Of a stretch of DNA of 64,000 bases, positions 26,618 to 64,000 are shown piece by piece (position 1 is the stretch's first letter; every line of letters starts with the position of its first letter). Below the pieces are notes generated by a model. The model was not told the DNA's origin. It ran no database searches and saw nothing but the letters and a program-made list of their open reading frames with translations. Position numbers and translations under genes: made by a program. Location of the stretch: NCBI GenBank assembly GCA_020629035.1, contig JAHDEC010000002.1, positions 1-64,000 on the forward strand, given 5' to 3'. This stretch comes from Saprospiraceae bacterium. GTDB taxonomy: Bacteria > Bacteroidota > Bacteroidia > Chitinophagales > Saprospiraceae.

Positions 26618-26675
26618 TACTTATCCCATTTCCATTTTATTATTTTGTTGTATTTTGTATAGTGAAAATAACTAT

Positions 26676-28931
26676 ATGAAATTCGCTATTTGCTTATTGT
26701 TAAGTTTAATGATTGGTAGTGCCTACGGACAAACTAGCTCTTTAAACTGCAAGGTTATTGACCAATCAACGGGTGATCCTTTAATAGGAGCTAACGTAAA
26801 ATTAGGTGAAGGATTTTATACTACTGATCTGGATGGGCAATTTGAAATCAGTGAACCAGCTTCAAGTTTTACCATTGAAATCACCTACGTTGGCTTTGAA
26901 AACTATCTAGAAAGTATTCAGCTAACCCAGGGACAAACTTATCTGGAAATTGCCCTTAAACCATCATCGCAAATTTTAAATACGGCCACAATTACTGGTT
27001 CGAAGTATGAACGGAACACGCTGAATGCCGTAAGTTCTATTTCAGTTTTAAAACCAGCCTTGATAAAAGAGACCAACGCACCGTCTATAGATCAGGTTTT
27101 AGATAAAATACCAGGAGTCCAGATTATCGATGGGCAGGCAAATATACGCGGCGGTTCGGGATATTCCTATGGGGCTGGCAGTCGCGTGCTCTTGTTAGTT
27201 GATGATATTCCAGCATTACAGGCAGACGCTGGGAGACCCAATTGGACAGATATACCGGTAGAGAATATTTCGCAGGTTGAAATTTTGAAAGGTGCATCGT
27301 CAGTGCTTTATGGTTCTTCCGCACTTAATGGAATTATTCATGTTAGAACGGCCTATGCGACCTCTACACCTGTTACCAGTGTCTCTACTTCATACACTCA
27401 CTTTATGTCTCCAGATGATGCGAGAAAGCAATGGTGGGACAAGTCTCCATTTTCTTATAATGTTGGTTTGCTACACAAACGAAAAATTGGAAAATTGGAT
27501 GTAGTTGCAGCAGGGTTTTATCATACAGAAGATGGATTTTATAGAGGGACTTTTACCAACAGGCAAAGAGCTAATCTGAATCTGAGGTACAGATTTAATG
27601 ATCGATTAACAGCAAGTGTGCAAACTGTACTAAACAACTCTGAAGCTGCTAATGAATTTGTCTGGGCAAATCCCACAACTGGAGCTTATATACCTTTTGG
27701 AGACCAAACGACTACGACAAATGCACTCAGGTATTACATAGACCCAAGTGTAAACTATACAGATAAATTTAACCATCAACATAAGTTGAAAGGAAGGTAT
27801 TATTCAATAGATAATCAAAACACAAATAATCAATCCAATAGCTCGACCTATAGATTTTTAGAATATCAATTTTTAAAAAATATTCCTTCGCTAGACATGG
27901 ATATCATTGCAGGAGCAACCGTATCTGCCATTTTCTCGGATTCAGAATTGTTTAGTGATACTATTTTTACCGGGAATAATCAGGCGGCATATATACAATT
28001 GCAAAAAGTGTTTTTTGATAAGTTGACAGTCAATGCTGGGACTCGTGCAGAATTTAACCAACTCCAAAGTCCGGCTATCTTGTATGGTATTACCTTACCC
28101 AATGGTGGATTAAATAAAGAATCAAAGCTGATTTCGAGAGCAGGAGTTAATTATGCTTATAACGATCATTCAGCAAGCCGTCTATCATGGGGACAAGGAT
28201 ATAGATATCCAACGATTACTGAAAAATATATATCTACATCTGTTGCTGGTTTTAATATATTCCCAAATCTTGACTTGGAATCAGAAACAGGATGGTCTGC
28301 CGAGATTGGACACAAACAAGGATTTAGCATTGCCAAAGTGCTTGCCTATGCAGATCTTTCTTTCTTCTGGTCTCAGTATAATAATATGGCAGAATTTGGT
28401 TTTCACGAGGAAGATGGAGTGCTTGGATTTAGGTCGCAAAATATTGGAGATACAGATATAAAAGGGCTGGAATTAGAGTTAGGTTCTAGTTCCAACATTG
28501 GACCAGTACAATTAAATGTGCTAGGTGGTTATACCTACATCGATCCTAAGTATAGGAATTTTGATGAAGACATCATGGAGAGTAGTTCCTCTACAGAAAA
28601 TATTTTAAAATACCGCAGCAAACATCTTTACAATTTTGACATTCAAGCATCCTATAAGTTTATAAGTATTGGTATTGCCCAGCGGTATGCCAGTCAAGTA
28701 GAAGCTATCGATAAGCTATTCTTTACGCCAGTTGATTTTGTATTTGTAAAAGCTTATTTAGACAATAACACCACCGATTATACAATTACCGATGTGAGAT
28801 TTTCCCTTAAATACAAGGAATATAAAATTGGATTCTTAGTAAATAATCTCTTTAATATTGAATATACAAAACGTCCTGCCTTATTTGAAGCTCCTAGGAA
28901 TGTTGGTATAAGACTTTCCGCCCAATTTTAA
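26676..28931 (+). CDS. TonB-dependent receptor, siderophore/cobalamin-like plug
   Basis: The product of about 751 residues starts at ATG 26676, giving a clean signal peptide (MKFAICLLLSLMIGSAYG). The longer frame from 26655 needs a TTG start. A regulatory-like domain (about 20-105) is followed by a plug with VLDKIPGVQIIDGQANIRGG and ILKGASSVLYGSSALNGIIH, the wording of classical BtuB/FhuA-type plugs, more than of SusC. The barrel ends GIRLSAQF. Iron-siderophore, haem or cobalamin transport is likely by family, but no uptake genes are nearby. A DUF547 lipoprotein follows. Confidence 0.9.
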   Translation: MKFAICLLLSLMIGSAYGQTSSLNCKVIDQSTGDPLIGANVKLGEGFYTTDLDGQFEISEPASSFTIEITYVGFENYLESIQLTQGQTYLEIALKPSSQILNTATITGSKYERNTLNAVSSISVLKPALIKETNAPSIDQVLDKIPGVQIIDGQANIRGGSGYSYGAGSRVLLLVDDIPALQADAGRPNWTDIPVENISQVEILKGASSVLYGSSALNGIIHVRTAYATSTPVTSVSTSYTHFMSPDDARKQWWDKSPFSYNVGLLHKRKIGKLDVVAAGFYHTEDGFYRGTFTNRQRANLNLRYRFNDRLTASVQTVLNNSEAANEFVWANPTTGAYIPFGDQTTTTNALRYYIDPSVNYTDKFNHQHKLKGRYYSIDNQNTNNQSNSSTYRFLEYQFLKNIPSLDMDIIAGATVSAIFSDSELFSDTIFTGNNQAAYIQLQKVFFDKLTVNAGTRAEFNQLQSPAILYGITLPNGGLNKESKLISRAGVNYAYNDHSASRLSWGQGYRYPTITEKYISTSVAGFNIFPNLDLESETGWSAEIGHKQGFSIAKVLAYADLSFFWSQYNNMAEFGFHEEDGVLGFRSQNIGDTDIKGLELELGSSSNIGPVQLNVLGGYTYIDPKYRNFDEDIMESSSSTENILKYRSKHLYNFDIQASYKFISIGIAQRYASQVEAIDKLFFTPVDFVFVKAYLDNNTTDYTITDVRFSLKYKEYKIGFLVNNLFNIEYTKRPALFEAPRNVGIRLSAQF

Positions 28932-28988
28932 TCGGTTGATTTAAACAAAAGCTATTAAATACATATTACATTTATACGTAACATTAAT

Positions 28989-30194
28989 ATGATGAAAAGA
29001 CAAATTTTATTTTTACTCCTTATACTTACAAGTCTAATTAGTTGCAAGACTGACGCAAAAACTACAGCCAATAGAGTAGGCGCACCAGAAAACGATAATC
29101 AAACCGCTTTGATTGAAGAAGCTGACCGTCAAGCAGAAGCGGCTAAAAAAGCAGTGGAAACACAATTAAAAAAAGCAGCACAGAGTGAACCTCAGCTTAT
29201 TATGGAGTCAAATACAACTTCAGAAACTACTGTGTTAACGCCTACTGATGCTAAGGCTAGCAAGTCTAATGAGATAAAAAAAGAAGTTGTAAAAGAGACT
29301 GAAAAAGTAATCCAAACACAAGTATCCAATACAAAAGATGCCATTGTCTTGGAAAATAACAACGAACTCTCAAAATCTAAGATGAAGGAGTTTATAGAGA
29401 AGAATAAAGATTTGTTGCAAAAGGAAGTGGAAAAAGAATCCACCGAGACAAACACAAAAATTAAAGAAAAAGCAACGCCTTCAAAAGAAACTCCGGTGGT
29501 GGATACACCTCCAATTCAGGAACAAAAACCAGAAAAAGAGATTCCAGTTAGTAAACCAGATCACGGTTTATTTAATAGTATATTAAACGCAAATGTTACA
29601 AACGGAAGGGTAGACTATGCCTCTATTAAGCAATCAATTGGGCAACTTGATGCATACCTAAAACAATTAGAAGAAAGCACATTTGACAGTAGTTGGTCTA
29701 GAGCTGATAAGCTAGTGTATTGGATTAATGCCTATAATGCATACACCATAAAACTGATTATCAACAACTATGGGGTTTCAAGCATTACTGATATCAATGG
29801 CGGAAAACCTTGGGACAAACAATGGATTAATTTACAAGGAAAGACCTACTCATTAAACAATATCGAAAACGATATCATTAGGCCTAAGTACCAAGAGCCA
29901 CGAATCCATTTTGCTGTGAATTGCGCCGCTAAATCTTGTCCACCCATTGCTAACCAGGCATTTACTGTGAGCAATCTGGAAAGCTTATTGGAAAGGCAAA
30001 CAAAGTCTTTTATAAACAATAGCACCCATAATCAAATATCGGCATCAAAAGCGATTGTTTCTAAGATATTTGAATGGTATGCAGAGGATTTTGGAGACCT
30101 AAAAACCTTCCTTAACAAGTATTCGAAGGTGCAAATAAACGCTAAGTCCAATGTCGAATTCAATGAATACGATTGGGCTTTAAATGGTAAATAA
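28989..30194 (+). CDS. DUF547 domain lipoprotein
   Basis: The 401-residue lipoprotein has its lipobox at Leu-Ile-Ser-Cys19. Residues about 35-190 are low-complexity, rich in Lys, Glu and Thr, and probably form an extended or coiled spacer. The C-terminal DUF547 domain (about 195-400) shows LVYWINAYNAYTIKLIINNY, PRIHFAVNCAAKSCPPI and the end AVVS-like KIFEWYAEDFG. The conserved Asn, Cys and His positions of DUF547 are kept, but no activity is established for the family. The long charged linker would lift the domain away from the membrane. Confidence 0.88.
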   Translation: MMKRQILFLLLILTSLISCKTDAKTTANRVGAPENDNQTALIEEADRQAEAAKKAVETQLKKAAQSEPQLIMESNTTSETTVLTPTDAKASKSNEIKKEVVKETEKVIQTQVSNTKDAIVLENNNELSKSKMKEFIEKNKDLLQKEVEKESTETNTKIKEKATPSKETPVVDTPPIQEQKPEKEIPVSKPDHGLFNSILNANVTNGRVDYASIKQSIGQLDAYLKQLEESTFDSSWSRADKLVYWINAYNAYTIKLIINNYGVSSITDINGGKPWDKQWINLQGKTYSLNNIENDIIRPKYQEPRIHFAVNCAAKSCPPIANQAFTVSNLESLLERQTKSFINNSTHNQISASKAIVSKIFEWYAEDFGDLKTFLNKYSKVQINAKSNVEFNEYDWALNGK

Positions 30195-57415: not shown

Positions 57416-58798
57416 ATGGACATTAATCAACTAATTATTTCAAACTTCCACAATGCAAAAAGTGGACTCTGTCTCTTTAAACCTAGTGGTGAAATTTTCT
57501 TGTTTAATAAATCGGCTGATCGTTTCTTCGTCAATACCAAGGGAAAACAGCTAGTAAATGGAATGAATTTAATCGAATGCTTGCCTCCTAAATTGTTAGA
57601 GAAATATAAACTTATAATTAAAGGCGAATTATCAAACCAAAGACCATTTTTGGAAACGACTGATAAAGAAAATGATCAGTATTTCGATTTAATATTTTCT
57701 AGACTTGAGCATGAAGTATTTGGTATTTATTTTCAATTAGTAATCGCAAATGTAACAGAATCCAAAAAGCTTCAAAGAACATTTGATAAAGTGCTCTATA
57801 TGGGAAGGTTCACGAAAAATCTGATAACTGTTTGTGATAAAGAAATGAAAATTATTTATGTTAATCCTTCATTTGAAAAAGTGACTGGTTACCTTTTAGA
57901 AGAAATTAAAGGAAAAGACATTTCTAAAATGTTAATAGGACCAAACACAGATACTAAAGTAGTCCAATATAAACACAGGCAGATAAGAGATGATAAACCA
58001 TATAATATTCAAATTCTTAACTACAATAAGAATAATGAAAAATTTTGGCAAGATCTGGAAGTAGTACCGTTAAAAGATGACAATGATGAAATTACCGGCT
58101 ATATGAGTATTGGCTCAGATATCACTGAAAAAATCAAACAAGAGAAAAAACACCTTAGAGAAATTCTAAGATCAAACGAAAAAGAACGAAATACAATTGC
58201 TGCAAATCTACATGATAATTTAGGTCAACTCTTAGGAGCGATTCATATTTTACAAATAAAAAATAATAAGAGTTTTGCTGCAGATGCTAGAACAAATCAA
58301 CAAAAAGAAGCTGGTGAAAAATTAGTCGAATTAATAGATCAATCTATTTCAGAACTGCGTGCTATAACTCATGACTTAAATTCTAAAAATCCAGGAAATT
58401 TTAGTTTTACTAATAAATTAGAAGACCTTATATATGACATTGAGCTATTAAGTGATATAAAAGTAAAAGTGGACATAGATCAAAGTATTGATTTTGTCAA
58501 TCTCAAAAACGCAAAAGCTTTGAAAGCAGTTTTAAGGGAACTTTTTAATAATTCAATAAAACACAGCAAAACCCAAGAAATAACATTGAAAACCTTGGTT
58601 AAGAATGAGCATTACGTAATTAGCTACTCAGATGAGGGCTGTGGATTTGATTGGGACGGAAATTTCTATCAAGGAAGTTCAGGATTAAGAAATGTATTCG
58701 ATCGAATAGAATCTTTTTCTGGTAGTATTCAACTAGAAAGTAGTCCAGGTAATGGTGTCAAAATTAGTATTAAAGTACCACTAAAGGCTTTTATATGA
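57416..58798 (+). CDS. PAS-domain sensor histidine kinase, HisKA_3/NarX type
   Basis: The 460-residue cytoplasmic kinase has no membrane segments. It has two PAS domains (about 10-115 and 135-245), a dimerisation helix with the phospho-acceptor His266 in the box ERNTIAANLHDNLGQLLGA, and a catalytic ATPase domain (about 350-460) with NSIKHSK, YSDEGCGF and SSGLRNV. It should sense an internal signal, perhaps redox or oxygen through a PAS-bound cofactor. It overlaps the regulator gene by four bases and is certainly its partner. Confidence 0.92.
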   Translation: MDINQLIISNFHNAKSGLCLFKPSGEIFLFNKSADRFFVNTKGKQLVNGMNLIECLPPKLLEKYKLIIKGELSNQRPFLETTDKENDQYFDLIFSRLEHEVFGIYFQLVIANVTESKKLQRTFDKVLYMGRFTKNLITVCDKEMKIIYVNPSFEKVTGYLLEEIKGKDISKMLIGPNTDTKVVQYKHRQIRDDKPYNIQILNYNKNNEKFWQDLEVVPLKDDNDEITGYMSIGSDITEKIKQEKKHLREILRSNEKERNTIAANLHDNLGQLLGAIHILQIKNNKSFAADARTNQQKEAGEKLVELIDQSISELRAITHDLNSKNPGNFSFTNKLEDLIYDIELLSDIKVKVDIDQSIDFVNLKNAKALKAVLRELFNNSIKHSKTQEITLKTLVKNEHYVISYSDEGCGFDWDGNFYQGSSGLRNVFDRIESFSGSIQLESSPGNGVKISIKVPLKAFI

Positions 58799-59415
58799 TC
58801 AAAGCAATAATAGTAGATAATCACAAATTAGTTAGAGAGGAGCTTAGCTCAATGCTTCATAATAAAGAAGGTATTCGAATATTAAATCAATTTGAATCCG
58901 CCCAAAAAGCTATCGATTATTTAGATAAAGTAAAAGTAGATCTAGTTTTGATGGATGTTAAAATGCCTGATATGAATGGTATAGAAGCTACTCGCATTAT
59001 AAACAAATTGCATCCACGACTTCCAGTTCTTGCCTTATCTATGTTTCATGATAAAAGTAATATTATTGATATGTTTAAGTCTGGAGCTAAAGGGTACGCA
59101 CTTAAAACAAGTGAAGAAAGTGAGTTGATTAAAGCGATTAAGGATGTAACTAATGGAGAATTATACTACGCTAAAGAAGTAAGTGATACAATGCTGATTA
59201 GTTTGTTGAATCAAACTAGTAAACGAAAGATTAACAATCCTGATTTATCAAAACGGGAAAATGAAGTGCTAACATTTGTGTTGGATGGTTTAACAGATAA
59301 GGACATCGGAGAAAAACTCCAAATAAGCAAACGAACGGTAGAAAAGCATAGGCAGAATATTATGAAAAAATATAATGTTAATAAAACAGTACAATTAATT
59401 GCTCTTCTAAACTAG
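58795..59415 (+). CDS. LuxR/NarL-type response regulator
   Basis: The 206-residue regulator has a receiver domain with phospho-acceptor Asp54 (LVLMDVKMPD) and Asp8, but the second acidic-pocket residue is Asn9 (VDNHKL). A LuxR helix-turn-helix follows (about 148-206: LSKRENEVLTFVLDGLTDKD, ISKRTVEKHRQNIMKK). It is read from a start that overlaps the kinase stop (ATGA). I infer that it binds the TACGTA sites at 59438-59460 and 60721-60737. Confidence 0.92.
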   Translation: MIKAIIVDNHKLVREELSSMLHNKEGIRILNQFESAQKAIDYLDKVKVDLVLMDVKMPDMNGIEATRIINKLHPRLPVLALSMFHDKSNIIDMFKSGAKGYALKTSEESELIKAIKDVTNGELYYAKEVSDTMLISLLNQTSKRKINNPDLSKRENEVLTFVLDGLTDKDIGEKLQISKRTVEKHRQNIMKKYNVNKTVQLIALLN

Positions 59416-59437: not shown

Positions 59438-59453
59438 ATTTGTACGTACAAAT
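59438..59453. promoter_or_regulatory. Perfect 16-bp palindrome, candidate response-regulator operator
   Basis: ATTTGTACGTACAAAT is a perfect 16-bp palindrome. A second palindrome, AATACGTATT, follows at 59451-59460, so the two TACGTA cores (59443-59448 and 59453-59458) are 10 bases apart on one face of the helix. The block covers a TTTG at 59439-59442 (-33-like) and touches the -7-like TATCTTTC at 59460-59467, as an operator would. Confidence 0.55.
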
Positions 59454-59459
59454 ACGTAT

Positions 59460-59467
59460 TATCTTTC
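59460..59467 (+). promoter_or_regulatory. -7-like element (TATCTTTC) of the DUF4382 gene
   Basis: It has one mismatch to TAnnTTTG, 17 bases after a TTTG at 59439-59442. A weak match with an adjoining operator is what an activator-dependent promoter looks like. Confidence 0.4.
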
Positions 59468-59493
59468 GTTTTTAAGAAAATGATAAACTTATT

Positions 59494-60531
59494 ATGAGAA
59501 AATTATTACAGCTTTCAGCTTTATGTCTCCTTTTGATTTCATGCAATGATAAAATGGATTTAGTAGATGATTCCGCTAATCAAAACCCAGACCAAACCAA
59601 TGAAGTCATAGAGACAGCAAACGAAACTAGGGTAAACATCCAATTAACAGATGGACCAATAGAAGCAGAAGAAGTGAATGTTGAAATATTAGAAGTTCAA
59701 CTTACTATCGATGACAATAAAATTTCACCTGAGATAACTACAGGAATTTATGACTTACTAGAATATCAGGATGGAATAGATACCTTGCTCGGATCAGAAG
59801 TTATTGAAGGAGTTCACTTAACAGAAATAAGACTTATACTAGGAGAAAACAACACGATAGTTGTTGATGGGATAACGCATGACTTAAGCATACCATCTGG
59901 AAGTCAGTCAGGATTGAAGATCAAAACAGATATACTGTTGGACCAATTAGATTCTATTTCACTAACGATAGATTTTGATGCAGGACTCTCTATACATGAA
60001 ACAGGAAATGGAGAATTTAAGTTAAAGCCAGTCTTATTCTTATTAGGTCATGGTGACGATGAAGACGATGAAGACGATGAGGACGATGAAGATGATGATG
60101 AAGATGATGAAGACGAAGATGACGATGAAGAAGAAGATGAAGATGATGAAGACGAAGTATCAATGGATATTCTGAATCAAATAGATTCGTTATATGCTAA
60201 CTATGAGGTAGAAGAAGTTGAGGGTATTCAATATTGTTTTGTAGACACAAAATTATACCTAGTAGAATTGGAAGATGAAGTTAATGACAAAGAATCAACT
60301 ATTCTTTTAAATCTTGATTTAGAAGAAGTAGGGTACGTAGAAAAGATTAACAAATTAGATGATACTGTTGCAATAGATGATTTCTTACTTAACAATTATC
60401 CTGATGCAGCAATACATCCGAAATCTGTGCTAATACATTTAAATAATATGGACTATTATCATATCTGTTTCATGTCGAGCAATTTGGATTGTTTGTACTT
60501 GGATAGTGAGTTTATCGAATTGTGCAACTAA
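59494..60531 (+). CDS. DUF4382 lipoprotein with Asp/Glu tract
   Basis: The 345-residue lipoprotein has its lipobox at Leu-Ile-Ser-Cys17. A DUF4382 domain (about 45-187) has the family wording VNIQLTDGPIEAEEVNVEIL and GVHLTEIRLILG. Residues about 188-221 are 34 consecutive Asp or Glu, encoded by 60055-60156. The remaining 124 residues (222-345), with three late Cys, are not recognised. An acidic tract on an exposed lipoprotein could bind calcium or another cation or polyamines; this is inference. It lies between the two-component system and the synthase-like pair. Confidence 0.85.
   Translation: MRKLLQLSALCLLLISCNDKMDLVDDSANQNPDQTNEVIETANETRVNIQLTDGPIEAEEVNVEILEVQLTIDDNKISPEITTGIYDLLEYQDGIDTLLGSEVIEGVHLTEIRLILGENNTIVVDGITHDLSIPSGSQSGLKIKTDILLDQLDSISLTIDFDAGLSIHETGNGEFKLKPVLFLLGHGDDEDDEDDEDDEDDDEDDEDEDDDEEEDEDDEDEVSMDILNQIDSLYANYEVEEVEGIQYCFVDTKLYLVELEDEVNDKESTILLNLDLEEVGYVEKINKLDDTVAIDDFLLNNYPDAAIHPKSVLIHLNNMDYYHICFMSSNLDCLYLDSEFIELCN
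60055..60156 (+). repeat. GAY/GAR codon repeat encoding 34 acidic residues
   Basis: The 102 bases consist only of GAT, GAC, GAA and GAG codons, without a fixed period but with recurring Asp-Asp-Glu. Mixed synonymous codons argue that protein acidity, not a DNA repeat, is maintained. The length is likely to vary between strains. Confidence 0.85.
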
Positions 60532-60550
60532 CTATTAGCGTTACTTAAAA

Positions 60551-60587
60551 AAAAGCGAAGGGAACTGATTCTCTTCGCTTTTTTTTT
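60551..60587 (+). terminator. Rho-independent terminator of the DUF4382 gene
   Basis: AAAAGCGAAG (60551-60560) pairs with CTTCGCTTTT (60573-60582), extended by GAA/TTC inside a 12-nt loop, followed by a T run. It separates this gene from the synthase-like pair. Confidence 0.85.
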
Positions 60588-60860
60588 GAGATTTATTTGG
60601 ATGAAGGCAAAAATAAATATTGAGTGTCAGTTTCAAAACGGCAAATATTATTTTGATTATTTTGAATTATTGATTATTTAATCATTAATTGATACAAAAT
60701 TATCTTCTTTTGTTTCTAATTACGTAAATAATACGTATAATTACTCATCAGATTTGTAAATAATCTGGAATCTTAAAAGATGTTTAGCTGACATCGACCT
60801 AATATAATGATAATCAACCTGTAGAAACCCACCCCAGTTCTCTACAGATTAATGTGAGAA
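60588..60860. other. Upstream control region of the synthase-like pair
   Basis: No ORF was found. It holds the TACGTA pair at 60721-60737, a direct repeat GTAAATAAT at 60724-60732 and 60756-60764, and a weak -7-like CAGATTTG at 60749-60756. From there to the ATG at 60861 is a leader of about 100 bases with no riboswitch-like structure that I can recognise. Confidence 0.45.
60721..60737. promoter_or_regulatory. TACGTA pair 11 bases apart, candidate response-regulator operator
   Basis: TACGTA at 60721-60726 and again at 60732-60737 lie one helical turn apart, like the pair at 59443-59458. The half-site ATTTGTA of the perfect palindrome recurs at 60752-60758. The site lies 12 bases upstream of a -7-like CAGATTTG. 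Confidence 0.5.
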
Positions 60861-62417
60861 ATGAAAATAAGTAATATTAGTTTATATCTACTAGCCGTAA
60901 TTGAGGGGGCTATAGTCATGGTGGTAGAATTATCTGCAGCAAAACTGCTAGCTCCATACTTTGGCACATCTATACAGATTTGGGCAGCTACTTTAGGTGT
61001 GACTCTAGGTGGATTGACGGTAGGTTATTTTTTAGGTTCTTATCTAAGTACTACCCAAGAAAGAAAAAATATAGTATGCATTAGAACAGTGTTACTTATT
61101 GCAAGTCTGCTATGCGTTTTAATGCCATTTCATGCTCATCACATTCTTGAATTTACTTTACGATTTAGCATAGGTTTAGGAGCAACATTATCATTATGCT
61201 TGTTTCTATTGCCAGTGCTAATAGGCTTAGGTGCAACTTCTCCACTAATTATTCAAGGCTTATCTCAACATTCAAATACTGCAGGTAAACATGCCGGTAG
61301 GGTGTATGGCATTTCCACCATTGGCGGAATTATTGGTACTTTTTTCGCAGGCTTTTACTTTATTCCAGAACTGGGGATAAAATTTACACTGTTGTTTTTT
61401 GGATGCTTATTAGCCATTGCTACCCTAATAATATTAGGTATTAAATTGTACAAGACTAATGTTTTATTTCTTGTTGTTTTTTCAATGGCAAGCTTTGTTT
61501 CTTTCAGCTTTCATCCGGAAATAAATGATCATTTTAATGTGTTACATGAGTCAGATGGTCTGCTTGGTAATATCAAGGTGGTAGAGCACGAAGCCAGTTG
61601 GTTTGGGCAAAAAGGAAAAACTGGAAGAGGTATTATGGTAAATAATACTATGCAAAGTTTTATGGATACTAACAATCCAGAAAGTTCGAGTATATGGGCG
61701 TGGTCTGCCATCATTCCTTCAGTGCTTTCTGTTTATCCTGAAAATTCCAAGGTCTTGTTATGTGGTTTAGGAGCTGGAACGATCGCTAAACAGTTGGATA
61801 ATTTGAATATGGATTACGATGTAGTCGAAATTGATAAACGAGTTGCTGAATTGGCAAAAGAATATTTCGGCTTCTCAAAAAATAAAGAAGTTCATATCGA
61901 TGATGCAAGACACTTTATTAGAACATCAAAAAACAAATATGACATCATCATATTTGACACTTTCTTAAGCGAATCAGCTCCAGAGCATCTTCTAACTATC
62001 GAGTCTTTTAAAGAAATAAAAGAAACATTAAATAAGGACGGCTTGCTTATTACGAATTTTTATGGCTTTACTACAGGTCAATTAGGTTATGCCGCTCGAT
62101 CTGTATTAAAAACTATGAGTGTCTTGGATTGGGAGGCAAATATAATAGCAACATCAGGAAAAGAAGAAAATAGAAACTTGCTGTTTTTTGCTTCTGAAAA
62201 AGATATTGACCTATCTAAAGCTAATTATTCTGAAATAGGACAAGAACCGATCACAGATTTACAAAATCTTGTAATTCCAAAGCGCTTGTTGAATTTAGAA
62301 GATGCTGAAATTTTGACAGATGAAAATCCAAAATTAGCTCAATTATATGCTAAACCTTCCCTGAGTTGGAAGCTGAGTTATAATGAGTATTATACAAAAC
62401 AACTATACACCAAATGA
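60861..62417 (+). CDS. Membrane-fused spermidine-synthase-like protein, copy 1
   Basis: The 518-residue protein has about seven membrane helices (about 1-205) that begin MKISNISLYLLAVIEGAIVMVVELSAAKLLAP, then a spermidine-synthase-like methyltransferase fold (about 285-470). Nucleotide-binding and active-site regions read LLCGLGAGTIAKQL, DYDVVEIDKRVAELAKEYFG, IDDARHFI and DIIIFDTFLSESAPEHLLT. The last replaces the common DAFSGDSIPVHLLT of fused MFS/spermidine synthases. It overlaps copy 2 by four bases. Polyamine synthesis by this class is not shown; amine transport or modification is possible. Confidence 0.85.
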   Translation: MKISNISLYLLAVIEGAIVMVVELSAAKLLAPYFGTSIQIWAATLGVTLGGLTVGYFLGSYLSTTQERKNIVCIRTVLLIASLLCVLMPFHAHHILEFTLRFSIGLGATLSLCLFLLPVLIGLGATSPLIIQGLSQHSNTAGKHAGRVYGISTIGGIIGTFFAGFYFIPELGIKFTLLFFGCLLAIATLIILGIKLYKTNVLFLVVFSMASFVSFSFHPEINDHFNVLHESDGLLGNIKVVEHEASWFGQKGKTGRGIMVNNTMQSFMDTNNPESSSIWAWSAIIPSVLSVYPENSKVLLCGLGAGTIAKQLDNLNMDYDVVEIDKRVAELAKEYFGFSKNKEVHIDDARHFIRTSKNKYDIIIFDTFLSESAPEHLLTIESFKEIKETLNKDGLLITNFYGFTTGQLGYAARSVLKTMSVLDWEANIIATSGKEENRNLLFFASEKDIDLSKANYSEIGQEPITDLQNLVIPKRLLNLEDAEILTDENPKLAQLYAKPSLSWKLSYNEYYTKQLYTK

Positions 62418-63967
62418 GGCTATTATTATACATATTAGCTTTTGCAGAAGGAATGACAGTCCTTGGCTTTGAAGTAGTTGTTTCTCGACTTCTTGCACCA
62501 TTCTTTGGTGGTTCTTTATATGTTATTACTGCTGTATTAGGAGTGACGATGTTAGCCCTTTTATTCGGATATTTTCTTGGGGGAAGACTTTCCGATAATG
62601 GTTCTACATTAAAAAGGATACTGATCTTTCAAATAATAGCTTCGCTGCTACTTATTCTGTCTCCAATAATAGCTAAACTTTGTTTGCAATTGAGCTTACA
62701 ATTAGGCTTAATTGGGGGGGTGCTTTTTTCATGTTTTATACTATTAGGTCCAGCCTTAATTTTACTAGGAGCTATTTCACCTCAATTAATCCATTTCTTA
62801 AATAAAACTGATGTAAATGCTGGAAAAGCATCCGGGAATATTTATGCCATTTCAACCTTAGGTGGAGTATTAGCTGTATTTACTATAGGTTTAATTTGTA
62901 TTCCAGCTTTTGGTGTAAAGAAATCATGCATATTATTTGGTTTGATTACTATACTTCCTTCAATTATAAGCTTGATTAAAGATAGATTCATAAAACAGTC
63001 GGTATTATCAGTTATTCTGTTTTTAGTATCGTGTGGAACATTAATATCTTTTAAAACAGACCAAATTGCTCAAGGAAATACATTGCTTTATGAAAGTGAT
63101 GGCTTATTAGGCAAATTACTTGTCAAGGAGTCCAATAATGGGTTTACTATGTTAATCAATAATGACATTCTCCAAAGTTTCGTCATTAAAGAAAACCATA
63201 TTTCTGGAATGCCTTATTCTCATGTCATAGGAACATTAGCTAGTCTTAATTTAAAGAAGAATAGAAAAAACGCAGTCGTAATTGGCGTTGCTGCAGGTTC
63301 TTTGATTCAAGAACTTATCGAATTAGGATACTCAAAAATATTTGGAGTCGATATTGATAATAGAACCCAATATGTGGCTGAAAAGTATTTCGGTCTTAAT
63401 CCCGAAAAATACACCTTTGTAAATGATGATGGTAGACATTTCTTTAATACTACAAATGAATTGTTTGATGTAATAATCCTTGATGTTTCATCAGGAGAAG
63501 ACCAACCATATCATCTATATACTAAAGAGGCTTTTGAATTGTATGCTTCTAAATTGATACCAACTGGAATTATCATTGTCAATGTGGTGGATCTAACTGA
63601 CATGAACGATGCGGTAGTTGTTTCAAGAGTTGGAGATGGCATGTTTGAAGCAGGCTTAACTACCTTATTATTAAAAAATATTTATCCCTCTAATATAGGC
63701 CCCGATCGTATGGAGCATTATGCTCAAGAAAAGATAATTATAGGCAGTAAGGGAGATTTTACTCAAATTGAAGAAGATATTAATGACTTAAATCCTTGTT
63801 GTATCAGCACAAGATTTAATACCGCAATAAAAAAAGATCTCTTCAGCATGTCATATCAGAAGACGAGTAAAATGTTCGAAAGCTTTACTGATGATTGTCC
63901 AGAAATGGAGCAATTAAATTATGAAAGAACAAAAATATTAAGAACACAATTCTTACATCCAAAGTAA
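62414..63967 (+). CDS. Membrane-fused spermidine-synthase-like protein, copy 2
   Basis: The 517-residue tandem paralogue has the same layout and nearly the same length, starting RLLLYILAFAEGMTVLGFEVVVSRLLAPFFGG. The methyltransferase-like half has VIGVAAGSLIQELIELG, IFGVDIDNRTQYVAEKYFGL, NDDGRHFF and DVIILDVSSGEDQPYHLYT. The motif is closer to the canonical spermidine synthase (D-x-SSG-x-D-x-P) than in copy 1, but the glycine loop has lost a residue type (VAAGS). The start overlaps copy 1 (ATGA), so equal amounts are probably made and a heterodimer is likely. Confidence 0.85.
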   Translation: MRLLLYILAFAEGMTVLGFEVVVSRLLAPFFGGSLYVITAVLGVTMLALLFGYFLGGRLSDNGSTLKRILIFQIIASLLLILSPIIAKLCLQLSLQLGLIGGVLFSCFILLGPALILLGAISPQLIHFLNKTDVNAGKASGNIYAISTLGGVLAVFTIGLICIPAFGVKKSCILFGLITILPSIISLIKDRFIKQSVLSVILFLVSCGTLISFKTDQIAQGNTLLYESDGLLGKLLVKESNNGFTMLINNDILQSFVIKENHISGMPYSHVIGTLASLNLKKNRKNAVVIGVAAGSLIQELIELGYSKIFGVDIDNRTQYVAEKYFGLNPEKYTFVNDDGRHFFNTTNELFDVIILDVSSGEDQPYHLYTKEAFELYASKLIPTGIIIVNVVDLTDMNDAVVVSRVGDGMFEAGLTTLLLKNIYPSNIGPDRMEHYAQEKIIIGSKGDFTQIEEDINDLNPCCISTRFNTAIKKDLFSMSYQKTSKMFESFTDDCPEMEQLNYERTKILRTQFLHPK

Positions 63968-63970
63968 AAA

Positions 63971-64000
63971 ATGAAACGCATGAGATATCAAATCGTTGGA
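63971..64000 (+). CDS. Start of a downstream gene, truncated by the window edge
   Basis: An ATG three bases after the copy 2 stop opens ten codons (MKRMRYQIVG) to the end of the window. The spacing suggests a third gene in the same operon. Nothing can be said about the product. Confidence 0.5.
   Translation, partial: MKRMRYQIVG

Follow-up and report, generated by a model that had tools for sequence, protein, structure and literature searches.

The stretch of DNA that was analysed is 64,000 nt long and is referred to as the window; all bare coordinates are positions in it. A sensor histidine kinase is encoded on the forward strand at 57416–58798 (Pfam PAS_9 1e-18, HisKA_3 1.7e-7, HATPase_c 5e-10). 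Its gene overlaps by 4 bases with that of a response regulator at 58795–59415 on the same strand, the proposed binder of the sites described below. The receiver (REC) and GerE domains of this regulator both scored above the Pfam cut-off (Response_reg 3.3e-26, GerE 1.7e-17), which places it in the NarL/FixJ family, and residue D54 aligns with the phosphoacceptor aspartate of other receiver domains. The first-pass annotation had treated it as a NarL/LuxR-type regulator, and this was borne out by the two domains and the HisKA_3 kinase gene alongside. A search of its own genome at E ≤ 0.001 gave 17 matches, itself included.

The first of two proposed target genes, for a DUF4382 lipoprotein, is located at 59494–60531 (forward strand; Pfam DUF4382 1.7e-23, lipoprotein signal read by eye). 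It is followed on the same strand by a strong hairpin with A/T-run flanks at 60544–60590 (−22.7 kcal/mol, z −5.7), a probable terminator at which a simple terminator scan called nothing. Since this hairpin probably ends the DUF4382 transcript, the synthase genes behind it would need a promoter of their own. These are SYN1 (60861–62417), the second proposed target, and SYN2 (62414–63967), both on the forward strand and overlapping by 4 bases. Both encode spermidine-synthase-like membrane proteins, SYN1 being of the fused MFS/spermidine synthase subfamily (Pfam Spermine_synth 5.4e-14 and NF037959 7.6e-52 for SYN1, 8.2e-11 and 3.1e-37 for SYN2). The gene run continues through a 122-aa ORF (63971–64339, forward strand; its first part, 63971–64000, is in the window) into a gene at about 64398–79121, beyond the window, whose 4907-aa product has SprB repeats and a CHU_C tail for type IX secretion.

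Two pairs of TACGTA cores, named operator 1 and operator 2 for the role proposed here, lie directly downstream of the kinase and regulator genes, in consecutive intergenic regions and 1.28 kb apart. Operator 1 is TACGTA-N4-TACGTA (59443–59458). Its upstream half is a perfect 16-bp palindrome, ATTTGTACGTACAAAT at 59438–59453, with the core at 59443–59448, and its downstream half, at 59453–59458, has a core that starts 10 bp after the first and is palindromic over 10 bp. Operator 2 is TACGTA-N5-TACGTA (60721–60737), with cores at 60721–60726 in TTACGTAA and, 11 bp further, at 60732–60737 in ATACGTAT. The ATTTGTA that the first-pass annotation took for a recurring half-site is at 60752–60758 on the forward strand, a candidate only. 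All of these positions agree with those given in the first-pass annotation. The palindromes around the four paired cores measure 16, 10, 8 and 8 bp. Of the ten remaining TACGTA in the window, six are palindromic across no more than 6 bp, while the palindrome reaches 8 bp in three and 10 bp in one. These ten had all been described as coding, which holds for the nine in long ORFs and fails for the one at 28975–28980, located in the short gap between ORFs 26655–28931 and 28989–30194.

The window contains 14 single TACGTA against a shuffle mean of 7.5 (14 were reached in 2 of 100 shuffles) and two pairs, while none of 100 window shuffles gave any pair. The whole assembly (4.08 Mb, 96% complete) was also searched, as the earlier annotation had proposed a genome-wide count of pairs spaced 10–11 bp; with gaps of 3–6 bp operators 1 and 2 were the only two exact pairs. 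When gaps of 0–30 bp were allowed, four exact pairs were counted, the two extra ones being elsewhere. Up to two mismatches were found at 71 places for the N4 spacer, of which one was exact and one had a single mismatch, and at 69 places for N5, of which one was exact and none had a single mismatch. Scaling from the two-mismatch class by simple arithmetic, about 0.12 exact pairs are expected per spacer, or about 0.24 per genome for both. In each of the two intergenic regions 3000 dinucleotide shuffles yielded no exact pair. As a control the pattern was read backwards, which gives a sequence commoner in the assembly than the TACGTA pair; it matched twice with gaps of 3–6 bp, 17 times with gaps of 0–30 bp and 291 times for each of N4 and N5 with up to two mismatches. 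Because the backward control is also common, finding two pairs would not in itself be remarkable. What is striking is the placing of both pairs in consecutive intergenic regions.

The promoter search took in an upstream TTG at about −33, with a spacing of 17–23 bp between TTG and the −7 box. The Bacteroidota sigma-A −7 box was taken as TAnnTTTG at −12 to −5, following PMC9723704. Near the operators only boxes with one mismatch were found, at 59460 and 60749, both of them tentative. The candidate TATCTTTC (59460–59467, forward strand) has TTG 17 and 23 bases upstream, and the start that it implies would put operator 1 between −33 and −7. The candidate CAGATTTG (60749–60756, forward strand) has no TTG 17–23 bases upstream, and operator 2 would be located at about −40 to −24 relative to its start. 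Because of this missing TTG and this position, activation of SYN1 seems somewhat more likely than repression, a weak inference. For the DUF4382 gene repression would fit as well as activation. Upstream of the kinase gene no pair with two or fewer mismatches was present, and there is thus no sign of autoregulation.

A comparison of these promoters in related genomes had been suggested. Among the listed matches to the regulator (E ≤ 1e-38) in 398 family genomes, with seven candidates scored per genome, none exceeded 43% identity; in a scan of genome contigs full-length relatives reached only 25–39% identity and shorter segments up to 63%. As these matches included no close orthologue of the regulator, direct footprinting of orthologous promoters was impossible and the comparison went by way of the PAS sensor and the synthase loci.

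Searching the 398 family genomes with the PAS-GerE protein of genome G114 (E ≤ 1e-25, five candidates scored per genome) gave sensor homologues in three genomes, namely the window's kinase, G114 and G291, and in all three the same two-synthase gene pair was nearby. The sensor and GerE parts, divided between kinase and response regulator in the window (57416–59415), form a single PAS-GerE protein in the two other genomes (L284:5944-6933 and L305:155-1159). In G114 a divergent gene for this protein, of 329 aa, flanks the synthase pair. Its sensor shares 36% identity with kinase residues 3–272, and between its GerE domain and the response regulator's the identity is 47%. In both G114 and G291 the PAS-GerE gene has SYN1-SYN2 in its vicinity, along with a small ORF and the gene of a secreted protein rich in Gly; in G291 a patatin-like gene (by eye) is placed between the PAS-GerE gene and the synthase pair, and the secreted protein, of 554 aa, is followed by another long ORF.

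The divergent region between regulator and SYN1 in G114 contains TACGTTTTAATACGTA, a TACGTA pair with one mismatch at a spacing of 10, and 3 of 3000 shuffles were as good. In G291 a two-mismatch pair is present in each of two intergenic regions, the regulator-side one and that upstream of SYN1. Nowhere else in the 10.5 kb locus was a pair with two or fewer mismatches found, and taken singly the two matches are modest to weak, 34 and 123 of 3000 shuffles being as good. A further one-mismatch pair of G114, TACGTATTATTAGGTA (L284:10700-10715), was observed about 50 bp upstream of a response regulator gene that is LytTR-like by eye.

The 500 bp upstream of 31 synthase-type genes were scored for the TACGTA pair. 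They comprised L305 and 30 fetched loci (L033-L062) from 33 matching genomes of 199, a few being closer to SYN2 than to SYN1. The best scores, ranks 1, 2 and 3 of 31, belonged to the three loci with the regulator, at 0, 1 and 2 mismatches. The other 28 had 3–5 mismatches, and a pair with two or fewer was found upstream of none of them; L061, which runs to a contig end, had 4 at best. The absence of the regulator from these 28 was taken from the sensor search, whose 398-genome draw was assumed to be the same as that of the pair survey, and from the lack of kinase or regulator matches in the loci. Since the motif was defined on the window's genome, a fair figure uses G114 and G291 only; for these, ranks 1 and 2 of 30 correspond to a chance of 1/435 by arithmetic; the two genomes share one genus label (g112) and are not fully independent. 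SYN1-SYN2 pairs lacking the regulator, in G002 of the same genus and in G168, G174 and G096, showed no TACGTA pair with fewer than two mismatches in the stretch around them that was fetched.

The comparison gives independent support to the synthase side of the earlier proposal that the regulator controls both the DUF4382 gene and the synthase pair, regulator, site and synthase being found together. For the DUF4382 side the evidence is the motif shared through operator 1 in the window's own genome, which would make this gene a candidate target, and none of 29 other DUF4382 loci fetched (L255-L283) contained an exact TACGTA pair. In G168 and G192 (2 of 18 stretches fetched) a DUF4382 gene and a synthase gene do lie no more than about 5 kb apart, a mild sign of a functional tie.

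Exact TACGTA pairs occurred in 81 of the 398 family genomes, and the backward control pattern was common there as well. The motif is therefore not private to the window's system. Of 30 pair loci picked by the tool (L163-L192), 28 had no regulator homologue within 1.5 kb and two had one (L177, L188); among 20 stretches added by hand, homologues were present in L227, the same place as L188, and in L240. Most pairs in the loci examined have no such regulator close by, so sites of this kind must be bound by other proteins as well. Six of 31 sites in the tool-picked loci lay inside ORFs of at least 80 aa. With the added stretches, chosen partly for AT-rich spacers and hence biased, 7 of 47 distinct sites were inside ORFs compared with 82% of random positions, these sites being a part of all pairs counted. 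Overlapping pairs of arrays being counted singly, 34 intergenic pairs could be classified, 19 between tandem, 11 between divergent and 4 between convergent genes. The 16-mer of operator 1 is repeated exactly in G181 and G137 (L221, L222), between divergent ORFs whose neighbours are dissimilar to the window genes, and these repeats were set aside as uninformative.

TACGTA pairs come directly after the gene of a GerE response regulator in G149 and G080 and precede an alginate-export-like porin gene (Pfam in G149, by eye in G080); in L240 (L240:3325-8445) genes for an NMT1-like, nitrate-type binding protein and a permease come after the porin. Eight of 13 loci orthologous to this regulator's, both starting loci included, have two or three TACGTA in the 350 bp that follow the regulator gene, and five have none there, one of which (L251) ends at a contig end. 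The spacings in L240, L177:649-3017 and L241-L248 are 11, 12, 13, 23 and 31–36. Some GerE regulators of this group probably have TACGTA as a common core in the sites that they recognise.

These response regulators beside nitrate-transport-like genes (L240/G149, L177/G080 and orthologues), from the same bacterial family, are also among the nearest known parallels: TACGTA pairs or arrays come after the gene of the GerE regulator, and the recognition-helix region is similar (RTVEAHR against RTVEKHR). Their targets are others, in L240 the alginate-export-like porin, NMT1-like binding protein and permease. The sites and targets of VraR differ from those proposed for the window regulator. VraR-type proteins are similar to it over the full length of REC plus GerE, and 5hev, 7ve6 and 4gvp are the nearest solved structures by sequence (best 1.4e-29). 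NarL sites consist of inverted heptamers around 2 bp, with the letters GTA-NN-TAC. NarL and NarP belong to the regulator's family, and the palindrome at 59438–59453, read as ATTTGTA-CG-TACAAAT, has the 7-2-7 geometry described in PMC7419079. Operator 2 is without GTA-N2-TAC and has GTA-N5-TAC and GTA-N4-TAC instead, so that the NarL 7-2-7 geometry fits the palindrome of operator 1 and not operator 2. Common to both operators is TACGTA-N4/5-TACGTA.

FixJ of Sinorhizobium is likewise a REC plus GerE regulator. One class of its SELEX sites, GTAMGTAG (Ferrieres and Kahn 2002, cited in PMC4999443), has a core, TAMGTA, that includes TACGTA. The sequence GTACGTAC at 59442–59449 has 7 of the 8 letters of this FixJ consensus. 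PMC4999443 describes the fixK site as an imperfect palindrome of 16–18 bp, which differs from two TACGTA palindromes one turn apart. FixJ's targets and kinase are also unlike those of the window, and the regulator scored 91.7 of 255 bits against the FixJ model NF006900, far below the cut-off.

The reading preferred here, at a probability of about 0.72, is that both TACGTA pairs serve as operators for the neighbouring response regulator, whose gene (58795–59415) lies just before them. A signal sensed by the PAS domain would cause the kinase to phosphorylate the regulator. Regulator dimers, one on each palindromic TACGTA, would then stand next to each other on the same helical face, the centres being 10 or 11 bp apart, and, bound cooperatively, would alter how the DUF4382 gene and the run from SYN1 and SYN2 to the surface protein are transcribed. 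The sequence itself shows the order of the genes, their domains, and how the pairs are spaced and that they are unique; the link between regulator, site and synthase is supported by comparison, and we infer the control by phosphorylation, the cooperative binding and the sign of control.

The same pairs would arise if a different regulator, a TetR-type or other HTH protein encoded elsewhere or another LuxR-type protein, controlled both genes. TACGTA palindromes are plausible sites for many HTH families, the genome encodes the 17 regulator matches mentioned above, and exact pairs are scattered over 81 of the 398 family genomes, in the loci examined mostly with no homologue of this regulator close by. 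Against this stands the distribution over the synthase loci, where a pair with at most two mismatches accompanies the sensor/GerE module in three of three cases and is found in none of the 28 without it, and in G114 the pair sits between the divergently transcribed genes of regulator and target. Control by another protein is rated improbable, though the likeliest of the alternatives to control by the adjacent regulator.

Hairpins, terminators or similar, in RNA or DNA are a much slighter prospect. The two hexamers of a pair can form a 6-bp stem with a loop of 4–5 bases, and some members of the pattern in the family (L175, L229, L228) are indeed extended hairpins. The stems in the window, however, are not extended by complementary bases past the cores and have no T-run directly after them; they fold weakly as RNA (−5.6 and −6.7 kcal/mol, z −0.2 and −1.7), and a stronger terminator-like hairpin is already present at 60544–60590. 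The G114 counterpart is moreover located between divergent genes, and just 4 of the 34 classified family pairs are convergent. Slighter still is coincidence, two chance pairs in AT-rich intergenic DNA. With about 0.24 exact pairs expected per genome one stray pair would not be strange, and the backward control too has two matches in the assembly, but both pairs fall within 1.3 kb in consecutive intergenic regions, neither was reproduced in 3000 shuffles, and the pattern recurs in related loci that keep the regulator.

A two-component system of this kind is well known; the new details are the operator, the targets and the exchange of kinase and regulator for a one-component protein. No paper describing the operator was found in a literature search, nor was a mapped site for a NarL/FixJ-type regulator in the bacterial group concerned, and the pairs thus provide a concrete candidate operator for a regulator of this type there. 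The sensor would be tied to two membrane proteins that resemble spermidine synthases and to a giant surface protein with SprB repeats and, if this is true, the loci would offer a clear case of a two-component and a one-component regulator with a common operator and common targets. A broader view is tentative and rather doubtful at present, namely that a single module for sensing and DNA binding exists in two wirings, as kinase plus response regulator and as one PAS-GerE protein, while the paired TACGTA operator and the target cassette were kept, and that this cassette may be signal-controlled, with membrane enzymes modifying a surface protein.

In the leader of SYN1 a hairpin was observed at 60819–60847 with CCCCAGT on the loop side (−9.4 kcal/mol, z −2.8). 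CCCCAG is also present in the leaders of G291 and G114, but folded as a whole the leaders are unlike, and those of G174, G168, G002 and G096 lack it. A search of SYN1 leaders against Rfam, that of G114 not among them, gave nothing above the gathering score.

The SYN1-SYN2-like pair followed by a secreted protein recurs as a cassette. It was seen in the window's genome (60861–63967 and L063 1971-17121, equal to genome C51 63971-79121) and in L284, L285, L286, L288 and L305. The secreted protein, of 4907 aa in the window's genome, is shorter or cut in the other loci, and behind its signal peptide it begins with a conserved Gly-rich string whose last letters are GGDC. That the synthase-like pair modifies this protein is a guess. 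A small ORF of 113–126 aa lies between the pair and the secreted protein in the window's genome, L284, L286 and L305; for L285 and L288 ORFs were listed from 120 aa upward only. In many relatives (L036, L038-L040, L042-L044, L046-L052) a single synthase gene comes not after this regulator but after the end of a subtilisin-type peptidase gene, recognised by eye from its GTSMA motif.
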